Shown here one piece after another: positions 951 to 57,112 of a stretch of DNA of 64,000 bases. Made by a program: the position numbers and the translations under genes. The notes under the pieces are model-generated. The model did not search any database and was not told the DNA's origin. It saw only the letters and a program-made list of their open reading frames with translations. Position 1 is the first letter of the stretch; every line of letters begins with the position of its first letter. The DNA is from Methanocella paludicola SANAE (lineage in GTDB: Archaea; Halobacteriota; Methanocellia; Methanocellales; Methanocellaceae): positions 1,899,501-1,963,500 of the forward strand of contig NC_013665.1 in the NCBI RefSeq assembly GCF_000011005.1. The letters run 5' to 3'.

Positions 951-1502
951 TTCCTGTGGGCGTTGGATTGTTTGGTCAGTAACACGAACTTCTCCAAAGG
1001 AAATAAACCACTAATTTTTCTTTAAGATTTTACTCACTAAACCCCAAAGCCCCGAACTCACCGTCAATGCACGAACTCTCAAACACTCTGGGCATTGCAC
1101 GAACGCCCGAAGCCTCAAACCCAAAAAGAAGGCTCTAAAGCTCGAATACACGTTTGAAACGCTAAACGACATAGCACTAACCCTCCAATGCTCGGTTAAA
1201 CCGCCAACGACACTAAAACCCAAAAATTCTGGGGAATGACCGGGCTCTTAGAGTGTTTTGCTTCGCAATTCGAGCAGTGCTCCACCGTTTAGCGTTTCAA
1301 ACGTGTTTTAGAGTCTTAGAGACTTCTTTTCGGGTTAGCGCGTTAGAGACTTAGAGCACTGCCCAGAGTGTTTGAGAGTTCGTGCGTTGACGGTGAGTTC
1401 GAGGCTTAGAGGCTTCGTGAGAAAAATCTTTAAAAAGAATTCGTGCGTTAATTCCTTTGGAGAGGTTCGTGATACCGACCGAACAAATCAACTCCACGGG
1501 AA
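951..1502. repeat. Foldback element A (long imperfect palindrome, TCGGTATCAC-end family)
   Basis: The left end (951-1030) is the imperfect reverse complement of the right end (1425-1502). Both outer ends carry a version of the motif TTGTTCGGTCGGTATCAC, and pairing continues inward almost to the middle near 1230. The arms consist of degenerate 8-10 nt words such as CTCGAA, GCTCTAAAG, CACGAA and CACTAA on the left, with their complements on the right. No credible gene lies inside. This is a diverged relative of the elements at 22114-22650 and 54258-54788. A vestigial extra terminus (GTTACCGATCAAACAAATC) lies just outside the right end, near 1523-1541. Length and terminal inverted repeats resemble a MITE. 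Confidence 0.85.
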
Positions 1503-21210: not shown

Positions 21211-22104
21211 ATGTTATCCATCTTATCTGGCGGCACGGGAACCCCCAAGCTACTGAGGGGCTTCAAGGACAGCGAAGACATCTCGGTCATCGTGAACACG
21301 GCGGAGGACGTGTGGGTCTCCGGCAACAAGGTAACGCCGGACGTCGACTCGGTCATGTATACTGTCGCTGGCATCATCGACGACAAGAAATGGTGGGGGA
21401 TCAAGGGCGATACTTTCAACACGTTCAAGGCTCTCGAGGAGATGGGCTATTTCGAGGAGATCATGCTCGGCGACCGGGACCGGGCCACCTGCATCTACCG
21501 TACCGATGTGATCAACAGCGGCAGCACGCTGACTGAAGCCACTAAGGACCTATGTAACGTTTTCCAGATAAAGATGAACGTCCTGCCCATGAGCGAATAC
21601 GATATAACGTCCGTTATCAGTACGCCCCTGGGCGACATGCACTTCCAGGACTTCTGGGTGGGCATGCACGGCGAGCCTGATGTCTCCGCAGTAAGGCTTA
21701 TGGGGCAATTGCTGCCCACGCCCGAGGTCATGGATGCCCTGAACGCCTCGGATGATATATTCATCGGGCCCAGCAATCCTATCACCAGCATCGGGCCCAT
21801 TCTGTCTTTAGAAGGCGTGCGAGAGACATTGCAGATCAAGTTCGTTATCGCCGTCAGCCCCTTCATCGGCGACCAACCCATCAGCGGCCCGGCCGCAAAG
21901 CTCATGAAGGCCAGGGGACTGGAGCCTTCAACGAAGGGAGTGGCAGAGTTTTACAAGGATATCGTCGATATACTCATCGTGGATGAGCGTGATAAGACCG
22001 ACCTCTCGGGCTACGATTTTGAGGTGGACCATTACGATACGCTGATGACGAGTGTGGAGAAGAGCAAGGCACTTGCCGATTTCATGCTGAGTAAGTGCGT
22101 ATAA
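21211..22104 (+). CDS. cofD: 2-phospho-L-lactate transferase (coenzyme F420 biosynthesis)
   Basis: CofD transfers the phospholactyl (or phosphoenolpyruvyl) group from an activated GPP intermediate to the deazaflavin Fo, giving F420-0. The 297-residue length is normal. The signature N-terminus LSGGTGTPKLLRGF forms the nucleotide loop, and GDRDRATCIYRTD and IGPSNPITSIGPIL are conserved family segments. It is a monocistronic gene divergent from the HD hydrolase, and a foldback repeat begins 10 bp after its stop. Its presence supports an F420-dependent methanogen. Confidence 0.96.
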   Translation: MLSILSGGTGTPKLLRGFKDSEDISVIVNTAEDVWVSGNKVTPDVDSVMYTVAGIIDDKKWWGIKGDTFNTFKALEEMGYFEEIMLGDRDRATCIYRTDVINSGSTLTEATKDLCNVFQIKMNVLPMSEYDITSVISTPLGDMHFQDFWVGMHGEPDVSAVRLMGQLLPTPEVMDALNASDDIFIGPSNPITSIGPILSLEGVRETLQIKFVIAVSPFIGDQPISGPAAKLMKARGLEPSTKGVAEFYKDIVDILIVDERDKTDLSGYDFEVDHYDTLMTSVEKSKALADFMLSKCV

Positions 22105-22113
22105 TATACCGTG

Positions 22114-22650
22114 TTCCCATGGGCGCTGATTTGTTCGGTCGGTATCACAAACATCACTAAATGAATTAAAACACGAATTTTTTTTAAGATTTTACTCACG
22201 AAGCCTCTAATGCTCTAAAACACCGTCAATGCCCGAACTCTCCAAGCCACAGGGCAGTGCTCGAATTACACTAATGCTCCAACCCGAAAGGAAAGCCCGA
22301 AAGCTCGAAAACACGTTTGAAACTCGAAACAGCCATGCACAAACACTCTAAAAGCCCGGTCGTTTCCCATTAGGTCAGTTTGTAATGGCTTGGTGCCGTT
22401 AGCGGTTTAGCCGTGCTTTGGAGTGTTCGTGCTCCATCGTTTAGCGTTTCAAACGTGCATTCGTGCTTTAGAGCCTTCGTTTCGGGTTAGAGGCTTCGAG
22501 AATTCGAGCACTGCCCTGTGGCTTGGAGAGTTCGGGCATTGACGGTGAGTTCGAGGCTTAGAGGCTTCGTGAGTAAAATTATAAAAAAGAATTAGGGAGT
22601 TAATTCCTTTTGAGAGGTTCGTGATACCGACCGAACTAATCAGCGAGCGC
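22114..22650. repeat. Foldback element B (TCGGTATCAC-end family)
   Basis: A palindrome of about 537 bp filling the space between cofD and a convergent Fe-S gene. Both ends carry TGATTTGTTCGGTCGGTATC or its complement. The arms are built from words such as CCCGAA, CTCGAA, GCTCTAAA and CACGTTTGAAA. Element C at 54258-54788, read as reverse complement, matches it almost base for base over most of the length, so B and C are recent copies in opposite orientation. No gene is inside. Confidence 0.9.
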
Positions 22651-22673: not shown

Positions 22674-23498
22674 TTACTCTACTTCTCCCTGTATCGTGAT
22701 CGTCTTCTCGCTCACCGGGATATTCTTCGCAGACTTTTCAAGTGCACGATCAACTACATAGCGCACGCCGCTGCAGCATGGAACTTCCATGTGTGCGACC
22801 AGGATGGATTTGATCGTGTGGCTGGAGAAGATATCTGCAAGTTTCTCGACATAACCGTCGATGTCCGAATCCAGCTTCGGGCAGAAGATGATGACGATGC
22901 GGCCACGCACGAACTCTTCGTGGAATTCCGCATAGGCGAAGGGAACGCAGTCCGCAGTGATGAGCAGATCAGCATTATCAAAATACGATGCCGCAGGATT
23001 CAGGAGCTTGAGCTGGATAGGCCATTGTCGAAGCTCGGACCCAGAATTTCCAGAAGGCTTCGGGCCTGGAGTAGTTAGTTTCCGCGGGATGCTCCTCACT
23101 GCAGAGCCCGGGCAAGCTCCGAAATTCGGGTGGCCGCCGTGCATACTGCCAGGAACGGGGATCTTAAGCTCCTTAAGGTATTCGACCGCCTGGTCATACA
23201 GGTCAGTCTGCCCGTGACCCTTAAGATGCTCGAGGTGGGCCTTGATAACGGGCATGCCCTGCTTCACGATATTCTCCATTACTTTCTTTTCATCATAGGG
23301 CTCGGCCTCTCGCTCAATGACACAGATAGCGCCTTGGGGGCAGGTACCGATGCAGGCGCCGAGGCCGTCGCAGAAGAGGTCGCTTATTAGTCGCGCCTTC
23401 CCCTCGATGAGCTGAATGGCGCCCTCCGGGCAGTCAGGGATGCACTCGCCACATCCCGTGCATTTTTCATTGTCGATACTGATGATCTTACGTTTCAC
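22674..23498 (-). CDS. Two-[4Fe-4S] ferredoxin-domain protein
   Basis: A 274-residue protein. Residues 5-65 form a bacterial-type ferredoxin domain with CTGCGECIPDCP and a second cluster motif CDGLGACIGTCPQGAI. The C-terminal 200 residues carry further conserved-looking cysteines (GACPGS, CVPFAYAEFH, IIFCPKLD, VPCCSGVRYV) and probably form a separate Fe-S or metal-binding domain found with such ferredoxins in anaerobes. It is likely a cytoplasmic electron carrier or oxidoreductase subunit; the partner is unknown. It is monocistronic, and element B lies 23 bp after its stop. Confidence 0.85.
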   Translation of the reverse strand: MKRKIISIDNEKCTGCGECIPDCPEGAIQLIEGKARLISDLFCDGLGACIGTCPQGAICVIEREAEPYDEKKVMENIVKQGMPVIKAHLEHLKGHGQTDLYDQAVEYLKELKIPVPGSMHGGHPNFGACPGSAVRSIPRKLTTPGPKPSGNSGSELRQWPIQLKLLNPAASYFDNADLLITADCVPFAYAEFHEEFVRGRIVIIFCPKLDSDIDGYVEKLADIFSSHTIKSILVAHMEVPCCSGVRYVVDRALEKSAKNIPVSEKTITIQGEVE

Positions 23499-26273: not shown

Positions 26274-26437
26274 TTTGTCACCTTCCTTGTAATTGGTTGC
26301 TGATTAATGGGTTGATTTGAGGGTTCAAATATTTTTTCGTGTTTAGCCAACTTTAATAATTGATGAGGTATGGCAGTTTAATTTGGTTGTTATTGAGTTA
26401 ATATGTTGAATAATTCTATCCTCTCACTTGCCCGGAT

Positions 26438-26660
26438 AAGCCCGTGAAGAGGCACAAGCCCGCGAAGACTGTTTCGAGCCCGAAGACCGCTAAGCTGGCG
26501 CGAAGACCGCGAAGACTATCTTAAAGAATTAATATAGCATTTTTAACATTTAAAATGAGTAAATTAACTATCTTTTAATGAAGCTTCGCGGTCTTCGCGT
26601 ACGCTTCGCGGCCTTTGCGCTCGTATAGTCTTCGCGGGCTTGTGCCTCTTCGCGGGCTTG
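26438..26660. repeat. Foldback element D (CGCGAAGAC family, no gene)
   Basis: The left arm (26438-26520) is composed of words such as CGCGAAGAC, CCCGAAGAC and CGCTAAG. The right arm (26576-26660) is its imperfect reverse complement, and a 55-bp AT-rich loop without a gene separates them. The arm sequence is nearly the same as that flanking the GxxExxY gene at 48615-49004 (shared runs such as GCGAAGACTGTTTCGAGCCC). This looks like the empty form of that element. It lies between the ablA promoter side and the end of the RAM-domain gene. Confidence 0.88.
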
Positions 26661-28017: not shown

Positions 28018-28475
28018 TATATTATGAAAAATCAGAACCAGTACAAAATTGAGATGATCAGTAATAATAAAATCTCTGCAGAGTTCGCTCTTTTATTGAA
28101 TTCCTTCGATGCGACTCACGTACTGCCATTCGGTTTTGCAACACGAAGACCCTAAATTCCTTTTTAGATTTTACGAACACTAAATCATGAAGACACTGTA
28201 AACACAATTAAGCCATGAAAACTCAAAGGCACTATTAAGTGAAATAAAACACCAAGCTCACGGTTATTAAGACACTAACGAACGACGTAAGCCACGAAGT
28301 GCCACAAAAATAAGACAAATAGATTAACTATAGTTATAGCGATCGATGCAACGCTATTATCGATACCAATTTTGAAAACGATAGGCAACTTAATGGTACC
28401 TGGGCTGGCGTTCCCTTTTTGTCTTATTTTGGTGGCACTTCGTGGTGGAGTGCTTCCATAAAAGTAGACAGTTAG

Positions 28476-29339
28476 TTAAGGCACAATGTTCGTATTTAAT
28501 GTTTTCTCGTATTCGATTGGTGATTGGTATCCTATTGACGAGTGTAATCGTTTTTGGTTGTACACTTCGTCGATGAACCGTTCGATGTTCTCCATTGCGT
28601 CCTTGAACGTCTCGTACTCGTTCAGGTATACCTCCTCGTACTTCAGGGTCTTCATGAAGCTCTCGGCGAACGCGTTATCATACGGATTGCCACGCCGGCT
28701 CATGCTAACCCGGATACCGTGCTCAAGGAGGCATTCAACGTACTCCTTAGAGGCGTACTGGACTCCCTGATCGCTATGATGAACCAGGCCGCCTAACTCC
28801 GTCCTCCTGGTCTCCAGTGCATTATGCAATGCTCCCAGCGTCAGCCTCGTATCGATACTGTGGCTGAGCTGCCAGCCAACGCACCGTCTGCTGTACACGT
28901 CTATCACTACGGCCAGGTACACGAACTCCCTGGACAACTGGATGTACGTGATGTCGGCCACCCACAACTGGTTAATACCTGAAACCCTCATGCCCCCGGC
29001 CAGGTTCTCGTACACTGGTTTATCGTGATTCGAGTCAGTGGTGCATACCCGGTACCGTCTTCTCACACACAACAGGTTGTACTGTCTCATCAGCATGTAC
29101 ACCTTTTTCCTACTAACAATGAACCCACGGTTGCCCAACTCCACCCAGGCTCGCCTATACCCATACCTCGGATAGTCGAGAGCTATCCGCTGGATCTCTT
29201 CAGTGATCAACAAATCAGACTCCGTGGGCTGTATCATGTTTCGAGTATGCAACCACCTGTAATACCCGCTCCTGCTGACCCCCATCAATTCCACAGCCCT
29301 CGATACCGGAAGACTGCCACGGCACTCCAGTATGCTCAT
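28476..29339 (-). CDS. IS3-family transposase OrfB (DDE integrase core)
   Basis: A 287-residue transposase subunit with an HTH_21-like N-terminus (MGVSRSGYYRWL, YPRYGYRRAWVEL) and an rve/DDE core. The catalytic residues lie in WVADITYI, VHHSDQGVQYAS and NPYDNAFAESFMKT. It ends with the typical YNQKRLHSSIGYQSP motif. Its ATG overlaps the orfA stop as ATGA. It is also open upstream in the -1 frame to a slippery heptamer in orfA, so a fused OrfAB is possible. Confidence 0.95.
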   Translation of the reverse strand: MSILECRGSLPVSRAVELMGVSRSGYYRWLHTRNMIQPTESDLLITEEIQRIALDYPRYGYRRAWVELGNRGFIVSRKKVYMLMRQYNLLCVRRRYRVCTTDSNHDKPVYENLAGGMRVSGINQLWVADITYIQLSREFVYLAVVIDVYSRRCVGWQLSHSIDTRLTLGALHNALETRRTELGGLVHHSDQGVQYASKEYVECLLEHGIRVSMSRRGNPYDNAFAESFMKTLKYEEVYLNEYETFKDAMENIERFIDEVYNQKRLHSSIGYQSPIEYEKTLNTNIVP

Positions 29340-29665
29340 ATACGATCCCTCCCTCGATCTTCCTCCCGTTTCTTCATGTTGGCCAACGCTCTTTTTAAAA
29401 AATCGTTCTCCGCATACAACTGGCCCACAAGCCTCTCCAACTCCCTCGTACGATTCTCATCCACGCGAGCCTTACCCTTACCCTGAAACGCGTCAGGATT
29501 CTCCTCATGCTCCCTCTTCCACCTGGCAACAAGAAACCGAGTGAGATCGTACTCCCTGCACACCTCTGCCACGCTCTTACCGCCTTTAAGCTCCCGCAAC
29601 ACCTGAAGCTTGAACTCCCGCGAAAACCTCCGCCGCTCAACTCTTCCCATACAATCATACCTCAT
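29336..29665 (-). CDS. IS3-family transposase OrfA (HTH)
   Basis: A 109-residue OrfA with a helix-turn-helix (RRRFSREFKLQVLRELKGG, then VAEVCREYDLTRFLVARW) and a C-terminal leucine-zipper-like helix (LERLVGQLYAENDFLKRAL), used to bind the IS ends and to multimerise. The heptamer T-TTA-AAA at 29399-29393, in phase for -1 slippage, would carry translation into OrfB without a stop. An alternative start at MGRVERRRFS is possible. Confidence 0.92.
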   Translation of the reverse strand: MRYDCMGRVERRRFSREFKLQVLRELKGGKSVAEVCREYDLTRFLVARWKREHEENPDAFQGKGKARVDENRTRELERLVGQLYAENDFLKRALANMKKREEDRGRDRI

Positions 29666-29915
29666 AGCAGATGTGCCTTAACTACCTGTCCACAAAAAAG
29701 GGAGCAGTCCATGGCTTACGTCGTTCGTTAGTGTCTTAATAACCGCGTCTTAGCGGCTTAATTCGCTTAATAGGGCCTTTGAGTTTTCATGGCTTAATTG
29801 TGTTTACAGTGCTTTCACGATTTAGTGTTAAAACTCTAAAAAGAAGAATTTCATGTCTTCGTGTTGTAAAACCGAGGGTCTGTACATGAGTCGCAAACAC
29901 TGCACAGAAATAAAT

Positions 29916-48470: not shown

Positions 48471-49098
48471 AAGCTCGCGAAGCTTGTTAAGTCCGCGAAG
48501 ACTGTTTCGAGCCCGAAGACCACGAAGCTTACGCGAAGACCGCTAAGATTTTTTTATTAATTGGTAATTGCTAAATACTTATATGCATATTATTGTAAAT
48601 AAGATGTGATTTATATGGAACCTATTCCCGAAGAAATAGAAAAGATCGTGACCCAAATTATCGATGCAGCATACAATGTCCACGCATACACAGGCAACGG
48701 ACTGCTCGAAAGCGCATACGAAGCATGCATGCTCATCGAACTGGAAAAGAAAGGATTGACTGTTGAAAACCAGATACTATTACCTATTATATACGACGGC
48801 CACATCATACCCAACGCCTACCGCCTCGACATCCTGGTAAACAAATGCGTAATAGTTGAAATAAAAGTCGTCGAAGATATACTCCCGGTACACATATCCC
48901 AGGTACTAACATACCTGAGATTCACCGATCTCAGAATAGGCCTGATCATAAACTTTAACAAAAAATACTTCGGCGATGCAGTCAGGAGAGTAAAACGAAA
49001 ATAAAATATTCTTTAAAAAAATCTTAGCGGTCTTCGCGCCAGCTTCGCGGCCTTCGGGCTCGAACAGCCTTCGCGGACTTAACAAGCTTCGCGAGCTT
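48471..49098. mobile_element. Foldback element E: GxxExxY gene enclosed by CGCGAAGAC-family inverted arms
   Basis: The left arm (48471-48555) and right arm (49014-49098) are about 90% reverse-complementary: AAGCTCGCGAAGCTTGTTAAG on the left is matched on the right as CTTAACAAGCTTCGCGAGCTT. Between them is a single gene (48615-49004) with its own TATA-like sequence near 48573. Element D has the same arm sequence without a gene. Inverted arms, one gene, and an empty sibling are what a small mobile element would leave. No clear target-site duplication is visible. Confidence 0.75.
48615..49004 (+). CDS. GxxExxY-family protein (PD-(D/E)XK nuclease-like)
   Basis: A 129-residue protein of the GxxExxY family. 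The namesake motif is GLLESAY near residue 31, followed by LDILVNKCVIVEIK with the acidic and lysine residues (D-x-n-E-x-K) of a PD-(D/E)XK nuclease core, then HISQVLTYLRFT and LGLIINF-like C-terminal strands (here IGLIINFN). Function is not established; the fold suggests DNA binding or cleavage. It sits inside inverted repeat arms of the CGCGAAGAC family. The ATG at 48615 is chosen over a GTG three codons upstream. Confidence 0.9.
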   Translation: MEPIPEEIEKIVTQIIDAAYNVHAYTGNGLLESAYEACMLIELEKKGLTVENQILLPIIYDGHIIPNAYRLDILVNKCVIVEIKVVEDILPVHISQVLTYLRFTDLRIGLIINFNKKYFGDAVRRVKRK

Positions 49099-54257: not shown

Positions 54258-54788
54258 CAAATCAGTTCGGTCGGTATCACGAACCTCTCAAAAGGAAGTA
54301 AACCACTAATTCTTTTTTAAGATTTTACTCACTAAATCCCTGAGCATCGAATTCACCGTCAACGCTCGAACTCTCGAATACACAGGGCAGTGCTCGAATT
54401 CTCGAAGCCTCTAACCCGAAACGAAGGCTCTAAAGCACGAATGCACGTTTGAAACGCTAAACGATGGAGCACGAACACTCCAAAGCACGGCTAAACCGCT
54501 AACGGCACTAAGCCATTACAAACTGACCTAATGGGGAACGACCGGGCTTTTAGAGTGTTTGTGCATGGCTGTTTCGAGTTTCAAACGTGTTTTCGGGCTT
54601 TCGGGCTTTCCTTTCGGGTTGGAGCATTAGTGTAATTCGAGCACTGCCCTGTGGCTTGGAGAGTTCGGGCATTGACGGTGTTTTAGAGCATTAGAGGCTT
54701 CGTGAGTAAAATCTTAAAAAAAATTCGTGTTTTAATTCATTTAGTGATGTTTGTGATACCGACCGAACAAATCAACGCCTACAGGAAA
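54258..54788. repeat. Foldback element C (TCGGTATCAC-end family)
   Basis: A 531-bp palindrome upstream of apgM. Both ends hold GTTCGGTCGGTATCAC or its complement, and arm words include CTCGAA, CACGAA, GCTCTAAAG and TTAGAG. It is a near-identical reverse-orientation copy of element B (22114-22650), which shows movement or recombination between the two sites. The right end extends outward to GCGTTTCCTGT-like sequence that is also found at the outer left end of element A. No gene is inside. Confidence 0.9.
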
Positions 54789-56643: not shown

Positions 56644-56721
56644 TTCTCATAGACAGTGTACCGTTTTGTCGTTTTATAGGATTTGCACTATAACTCCATT
56701 CGCCTTTTACGTTGTGCCATC

Positions 56722-57015
56722 ATTGAGTGGTCCAACCACAGAGGCGCAGAGCGCACGGAGTTACACAGAGTTTTTATTTAATAATTTGAGACACGGAGCC
56801 CACAGAGCCCGGTTTATTAGTTTGCCTAGGGCACAGAGATAATTGAGGCCCGGTTGACCAATAAACAATAATGCGGGTTTATCCTCAGCAGTGCCTCTAA
56901 CAACTCCGTGCCCCAGGAAAGTATAAACCCGTTCTCCGTGCCCTCTGAGCCTCCATATTTAAAAAACTCAGTGAACTCTGCGCTCTCCGTGCCCCTGTGG
57001 TTGGACCACTCAAAG
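56722..57015. repeat. Foldback element G (CACAGAG/CGCAGAG family)
   Basis: The left end TTGAGTGGTCCAACCACAG (56723-56741) reappears as its reverse complement at 56995-57013. The arms are words of 7-10 nt such as CACAGAG, GCGCAGAG, CGCACGGAG and ACACGGAG on the left, and CTCCGTG, CTCTGCG and CTCTGAG on the right. The loop near 56830-56880 has no gene. Similar CACAGAG-word arrays occur in many unrelated prokaryotic genomes. It lies between usp and the GNAT gene. Confidence 0.88.
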
Positions 57016-57112
57016 ACGGCTTTATAAGAAAATTATGGAAAAAAATATTGGATATCAAGGACGTTGCCTTCTCATAATATTTATACGAAAAGCTCTTTTT
57101 AATTAAGAGACC

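Follow-up and report, generated by a model that had tools for sequence, protein, structure and literature searches.

Three gene-less hairpins (A, B and C) in the window, the 64,000-nucleotide stretch of the Methanocella paludicola SANAE genome analysed here (G000:C1:1899501-1963500, on a single 2,957,635-bp contig), are probably non-autonomous-like members of a class of hairpins whose gene-bearing forms hold a GxxExxY gene in the loop (Table 1). On the best reading, this class would work in the manner of REPIN-RAYT systems, or of MITEs paired with a cognate protein, the partner here being a predicted Cas4/RecB-like nuclease. The hairpins are dispersed and multicopy, and gene-bearing and gene-less copies of one arm family occur within one genome.

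Table 1. Hairpins and loop gene located in the window
Feature	Position	Strand	Arms or relationship
Element A, gene-less hairpin, 0.55 kb	951..1502	.	arms 951-1178 and 1276-1502
Element B, gene-less hairpin	22114..22650	.	arms 22124-22359 and 22411-22645
Gene-less hairpin akin to the 48471-49098 element	26432..26660	.	arms 75-82% alike
Word-repeat hairpin interrupted by an IS3-type element	28110..29896	.	arms 84% alike over 195 bp
Gene-bearing hairpin, other arm family than A, B and C	48471..49098	+	arms 48471-48556 and 49014-49098
GxxExxY gene, 129 aa, PD-(D/E)XK fold	48615..49004	+	loop of the 48471..49098 hairpin
Element C, gene-less hairpin	54258..54788	.	arms 54265-54490 and 54542-54768
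Gene-less hairpin akin to the GxxExxY element at C1:1469810	56704..57025	.	73-78% alike

The 0.53-kb palindrome family of the host genome

A, B and C are homologous imperfect palindromes of ~0.53 kb with common ends, GTTCGGTCGGTATCACGAAC. Their arms are 79-82% complementary over 228-238 aligned bp around a centre of 50-100 bp, the folds are very stable, and no coding frame was found, the longest open stretch starting with M or V being only 45-66 codons. The sequence-only reading, which had described three non-coding palindromes paired along their length, with A diverged and B and C nearly identical, was borne out in these respects: overall identity is 95% between B and C, and A and B match at 73-76%. 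The differences between B and C are clustered, with 3 differing columns across the first ~380 compared with ~24 over the final ~135; the two elements are therefore mosaics, and recombination between copies explains this structure. Element A is extended to ~1546 by a further end unit on its outer side, which contains a degenerate second copy of the core, and element B lies between a cofD-like ORF ending at 22104 and an ORF at 22674-23498 (-).

To place these elements in the genome, we searched it both with the full DNA sequence and with a 16-bp end, GTTCGGTCGGTATCAC. The former returned ~34 complete copies, 77-100% identical, together with split ones, and the latter, allowing up to 2 mismatches, returned 94 matches (48 + 46) versus 0 for a reversed control pattern, which places the family far above chance. 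The expectation of many copies in the genome was thus confirmed, the family comprising ~40 copies (~34 full-length, 5 interrupted by insertion sequences and one end fragment). Nearly all copies share the core ends, as the earlier description of simple terminal inverted repeats had it; that description fell short outside the core, where degenerate outer segments of two types, TATGCCGTGTTTCCTGTGGGCGCTGATTTG and GTGCAAATCAG, occur, and where some copies carry a second TTCGGTCGGTATCAC core 48-57 bp farther outward. A solo end of the family (L049:335-437) consists of a double core followed by unrelated genic sequence, and is a copy that has been truncated but retains its outer unit. A 17-19-bp insert, TGCTCGAATTGCGAAGCAA, is present in one arm of four copies (the 1157-1290 region of A, L023, L026 and L029) and, inverted, in the other arm of L034, a distribution suggestive of sequence exchange, either between arms or from copy to copy. 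The end search also revealed another family of palindromes, ~0.3 kb in length (L050-L057, e.g. L050:293-598), which has at least 8 copies, ends CTTCGGTCGGTATCACGAAA and inner sequence TTTTTATATCCCACGTAAGG; its ends resemble those of the 0.53-kb family.

The copies are placed beside the 3' ends of genes: a rough ORF count, in which B and C were entered twice and B was scored tandem despite a convergent ORF pair at its locus, gave 18 convergent, 15 tandem and 0 divergent contexts. A target duplication was looked for and not found, the longest common word of the outside flanks being 6.15 versus 6.11 for permuted flanks. Direct repeats, CAAATCAG, adjoin 5 of 34 copies and were rejected as target duplications, being variants of the end sequence. 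The text of the M. paludicola SANAE genome paper (PMC3146512) does not mention these repeats.

Variation among 34 copies was examined for linkage and for compensatory change. Linkage between variable sites was lost within ~10 bp (mean r2 of 0.32 at up to 5 bp, 0.09 at 6-15 bp and 0.05 beyond), which recombination could explain, as could repeated switching among a small set of word forms. Covariation between the arms was absent, with 783 paired cells across 55 doubly variable pairs versus 802 (sd 14) after shuffling, and the compensatory arm changes expected of a structured RNA or a pairing-selected hairpin were accordingly not seen. An apparent covariation on the folded consensus, which was biased toward G-U, disappeared in a symmetric test.

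GxxExxY genes between inverted arms

The window also contains a GxxExxY gene in the loop of a hairpin, which, together with three further gene-less or interrupted hairpins (Table 1), had escaped the sequence-only reading. The encoded protein scored 137 bits against TIGR04256 (cut-off 35) and contains the GxxExxY motif. All 6 GxxExxY genes of the host lie between long inverted repeats of 7-8-bp words (CACGAAG, CTCTAAG and the like in the 5' arm, their complements in the 3' arm), as do 11 of the 12 loci tested in four genomes of the host's archaeal family, the sole exception being L141, which has no hairpin. Copies of these elements have clean edges at unrelated sites: the window element, whose shared tail extends to ~49114, is almost the same as its sister at C1:491296 from AAGCTCGCG to CGCGAGCTTAAAAAGATAGAGA and unrelated to it outside, and three copies of another family are alike from GTTATGC to GCATAAC. 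In all, ~27 palindromes share the arm of the C1:1635001 element, one containing a GxxExxY gene and one an IS256 element. The four-helix-bundle family TIGR02436 was considered as another possible loop gene; the search gave no match, but neither did its controls.

None of the 0.53-kb copies of the host contains a GxxExxY gene or a remnant of one; the link to gene-bearing forms comes from a relative. With the 537-bp element as query against 40 relatives, the sole match was G001, which belongs to another genus of the host's family and contains ~85 homologous palindromes with unrelated ends, GGATGGCAGGTAG. Its inner arms are ~72% identical to those of the host over 130 bp, and within a single G001 element the two arms are 85-87% complementary. 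Three G001 copies (L123, L124 and L125) are ~1.0 kb long with a GxxExxY gene in the loop, intact in L125 (136 aa) and damaged in L123 and L124; the loop protein scored 123.7 bits against TIGR04256 (cut-off 35) and 118.5 bits against PF13366 (cut-off 22). The arms of L123-L125 align to those of the A/B/C family at 69-73% over 122-150 bp, and the word-repeat arms of A, B and C are thus homologous to those of gene-bearing copies. Outside G001 palindromes such as L117 and L118 lie conserved asymmetric segments of ~95 and ~110 bp, beginning CTCCCATGAAAAACTTTT and CACCACGAAATCTTTGATGAGCGGGGTCTTGCTCAGG; additional words of the CCTTTGTG type frequently adjoin them. One G001 GxxExxY gene lies between inverted tandem arrays (L133:980-1310 and 1890-2100) of a ~60-bp unit, CCACTAAGTACACGAGGGTTACTAAGGTACACTAGCTTAA, with ~5 or more units per side, which indicates that hairpin arms can grow by tandem duplication.

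Elsewhere among the relatives, two related genomes were found to have no such palindrome, and an exact scan of genome contigs with the 20-bp end gave 0 matches beyond its own genome, which marks the ends as lineage-specific. No 0.5-kb palindrome is present at the cofD locus (next to B in the host) in three relatives, in which the local gene order also differs. The different ends in G001 and the palindrome-free cofD locus indicate that the copies do not occupy fixed ancient positions.

To examine the prevalence of this layout, we scanned genomes for GxxExxY relatives and confirmed 572, the best 80 of which came from many phyla. Words and inverted repeats were surveyed at 76 loci drawn from the best-scoring, similarity-ranked relatives. 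The word CRCNRAG occurred 2.99 times per 300 bp upstream versus 0.82 for its complement, and 1.13 times per 300 bp downstream versus 3.47 for its complement, falling to 0.27-0.48 at 0.9-1.2 kb. Words upstream with the complement downstream were present at 46 of the 76 loci, and the reverse arrangement at 2, revealing a gene-in-hairpin layout with a single orientation across many phyla. The word pattern was picked after these arms had been viewed, and the strand contrast and the distance control therefore carry the argument. A general inverted-repeat score exceeded the 99th percentile of mismatched pairs at 17 of 76 loci, a less striking result in part because the loci share similar words. In a GxxExxY tree of 38 rows the phyla were largely mixed, which suggests rather than demonstrates transfer of the gene, the tree being weakly resolved with few supported branches.

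Six residues (E32, Y35, D72, E82, K84 and Q96) are invariant among 38 GxxExxY sequences. An AlphaFold2 model of the window protein (pLDDT 95.9) matched best, among solved structures, SSO0001 (E 1.7e-3, TM ~0.5), a Sulfolobus Cas4, with lambda exonuclease and AdnAB lower down; a comparison with PDB sequences gave no match. The model fits a predicted Cas4/RecB-like PD-(D/E)XK nuclease, sharing the modelled fold and the D, ExK and Q motifs of Cas4, RecB and lambda-exonuclease-like nucleases, but the protein stands alone at 129 aa with no adjoining helicase or Cas1. The G001 loop gene is a clear member of TIGR04256 and PF13366 (PDDEXK_3), above both curated cut-offs, whereas the searchable literature describes this family at the protein level only and does not mention a hairpin setting.

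Insertion sequences and alternative explanations

Five 0.53-kb copies (L009, L010, L011, L047 and L048) contain a 1.2-1.3 kb insert near the centre, encoding IS256-family transposases of three types. The inserts have inverted ends of their own and short (8-bp) duplications, such as GAGCCCGG in L047 and CCCGCATT in L010, and are therefore later insertions into the palindromes. Of the 8 IS256-family transposase genes in the host genome, 6 lie between inverted arms and the other two do not; the sixth arm-flanked case (L234) is an identical insertion sequence in an unrelated hairpin family, with the duplication CCATCGTG. A similar interruption, by an IS3-type insertion sequence at ~28446-29711 (orfA 109 aa, orfB 287 aa, with an apparent flanking TGG duplication), splits one hairpin of the window. 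The earlier statement that no matching transposase is present in the window extends to the genome: among all end matches in the genome, no transposase with the palindrome's ends was found, and the only genes between paired ends were those of IS256 insertions with ends of their own. With these ends, duplications and three transposase types, IS256 was rejected as the mobiliser of the palindromes. Occurrence of an IS256 transposase between the arms of 5 of ~40 copies might also suggest that the palindromes are internal-deletion derivatives of the IS256 elements. This origin is extremely improbable, being contradicted by the duplications, by the presence of three different transposases, each in an insert with its own inverted ends, by the identical insertion sequence in the unrelated family of L234, and by the insert-free palindrome being the complete and common form.

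A conventional transposase, lost or unrecognised, could instead have moved ordinary MITE or foldback families in trans, with the GxxExxY gene as a passenger or coloniser. The multicopy, non-coding nature and common ends of the family accord with this, as do the gene-free host copies and the rarity of gene-bearing ones; with only 3 of ~85 G001 copies carrying the gene, two of them damaged, it could be a passenger. We nevertheless regard this explanation as rather unlikely, since no element with these ends carries a transposase of its own, target duplications are lacking, and the GxxExxY-hairpin layout recurs across many phyla; moreover, elements moved by a transposase ought to keep their ends, yet the ends are wholly different between G001 and the host despite conserved inner arms. 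A role for host selection, in which the hairpins would serve as terminators, stabilisers of mRNA 3' ends or sites that structure the chromosome and would owe their spread to recombination and not to mobility of their own, accords with the very stable folds and the positions behind gene ends, but is improbable given the lack of compensatory arm changes, the existence of gene-in-loop copies, and a copy number and ends that are wholly different between related genera, two related genomes having no copies at all.

Relation to known elements and proposed mobility

As in REPIN-RAYT systems (PMC3116915), the elements are dispersed extragenic palindromes, many of them gene-less, and a cognate gene of nuclease type, present in few copies, is bordered by the same repeats. 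They differ in that RAYT is a Y1/HUH transposase, whereas the loop gene matches TIGR04256/PF13366 only and its product is of the PD-(D/E)XK type, and in that REP hairpins span 20-40 bp, whereas the arms here span 85-240 bp with the gene within the loop. The elements share with prokaryotic MITEs (PMC10969869) a short, non-coding, multicopy and intergenic nature and terminal inverted repeats, but have neither a target-site duplication nor a parental transposase with the same ends, and they pair through the whole element. The earlier comparison with a MITE or foldback element dependent on an enzyme in trans therefore holds for the non-coding, repeated, foldback and intergenic character, and not for descent from a transposase gene in the manner of a standard MITE. 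Chunjie, a Geobacter MITE considered as a possible relative, is described as having direct repeats (PMC10969869), and the same review does not mention GxxExxY. Insertion sequences of the IS3, IS110, IS4, IS256 and IS5 families target REP sequences (PMC1525189), much as IS256- and IS3-type elements lie in repeated palindromes here; the difference is that the target is the centre of large archaeal hairpins and involves 6 of 8 IS256-family copies in the genome and three transposase types. The open-access literature, the part searched here, yielded no description of a GxxExxY-hairpin association, and the only two papers there that mention GxxExxY concern reverse transcriptases and an algal virus.

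Tentatively, we propose that GxxExxY hairpin elements may form an unrecognised class of mobile element in bacteria and archaea, in which the loop nuclease would propagate the hairpin using none of the DDE, HUH or recombinase chemistries, families of the A/B/C type being non-autonomous derivatives. Association is what points to the nuclease as the putative driver of mobility. Movement would involve a folded single strand or a cruciform, either as the moving form or as an intermediate, which the nuclease may recognise and cut; new copies would then enter intergenic DNA without target duplication, possibly via repair copying after breakage. Gene-less copies may be spread in trans, or may decay; they may also recombine among themselves and offer IS256 and IS3 elements places to insert.

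This analysis links large families of non-coding palindromes, the widespread uncharacterised GxxExxY (TIGR04256) proteins, and intergenic strings of CACAGAG/CACGAAG-type words. PD-(D/E)XK chemistry is not known to work alone in transposition. If the link is causal, a common GxxExxY protein would be the enzyme of a type of mobile element, and many unexplained intergenic repeats would gain a testable origin.
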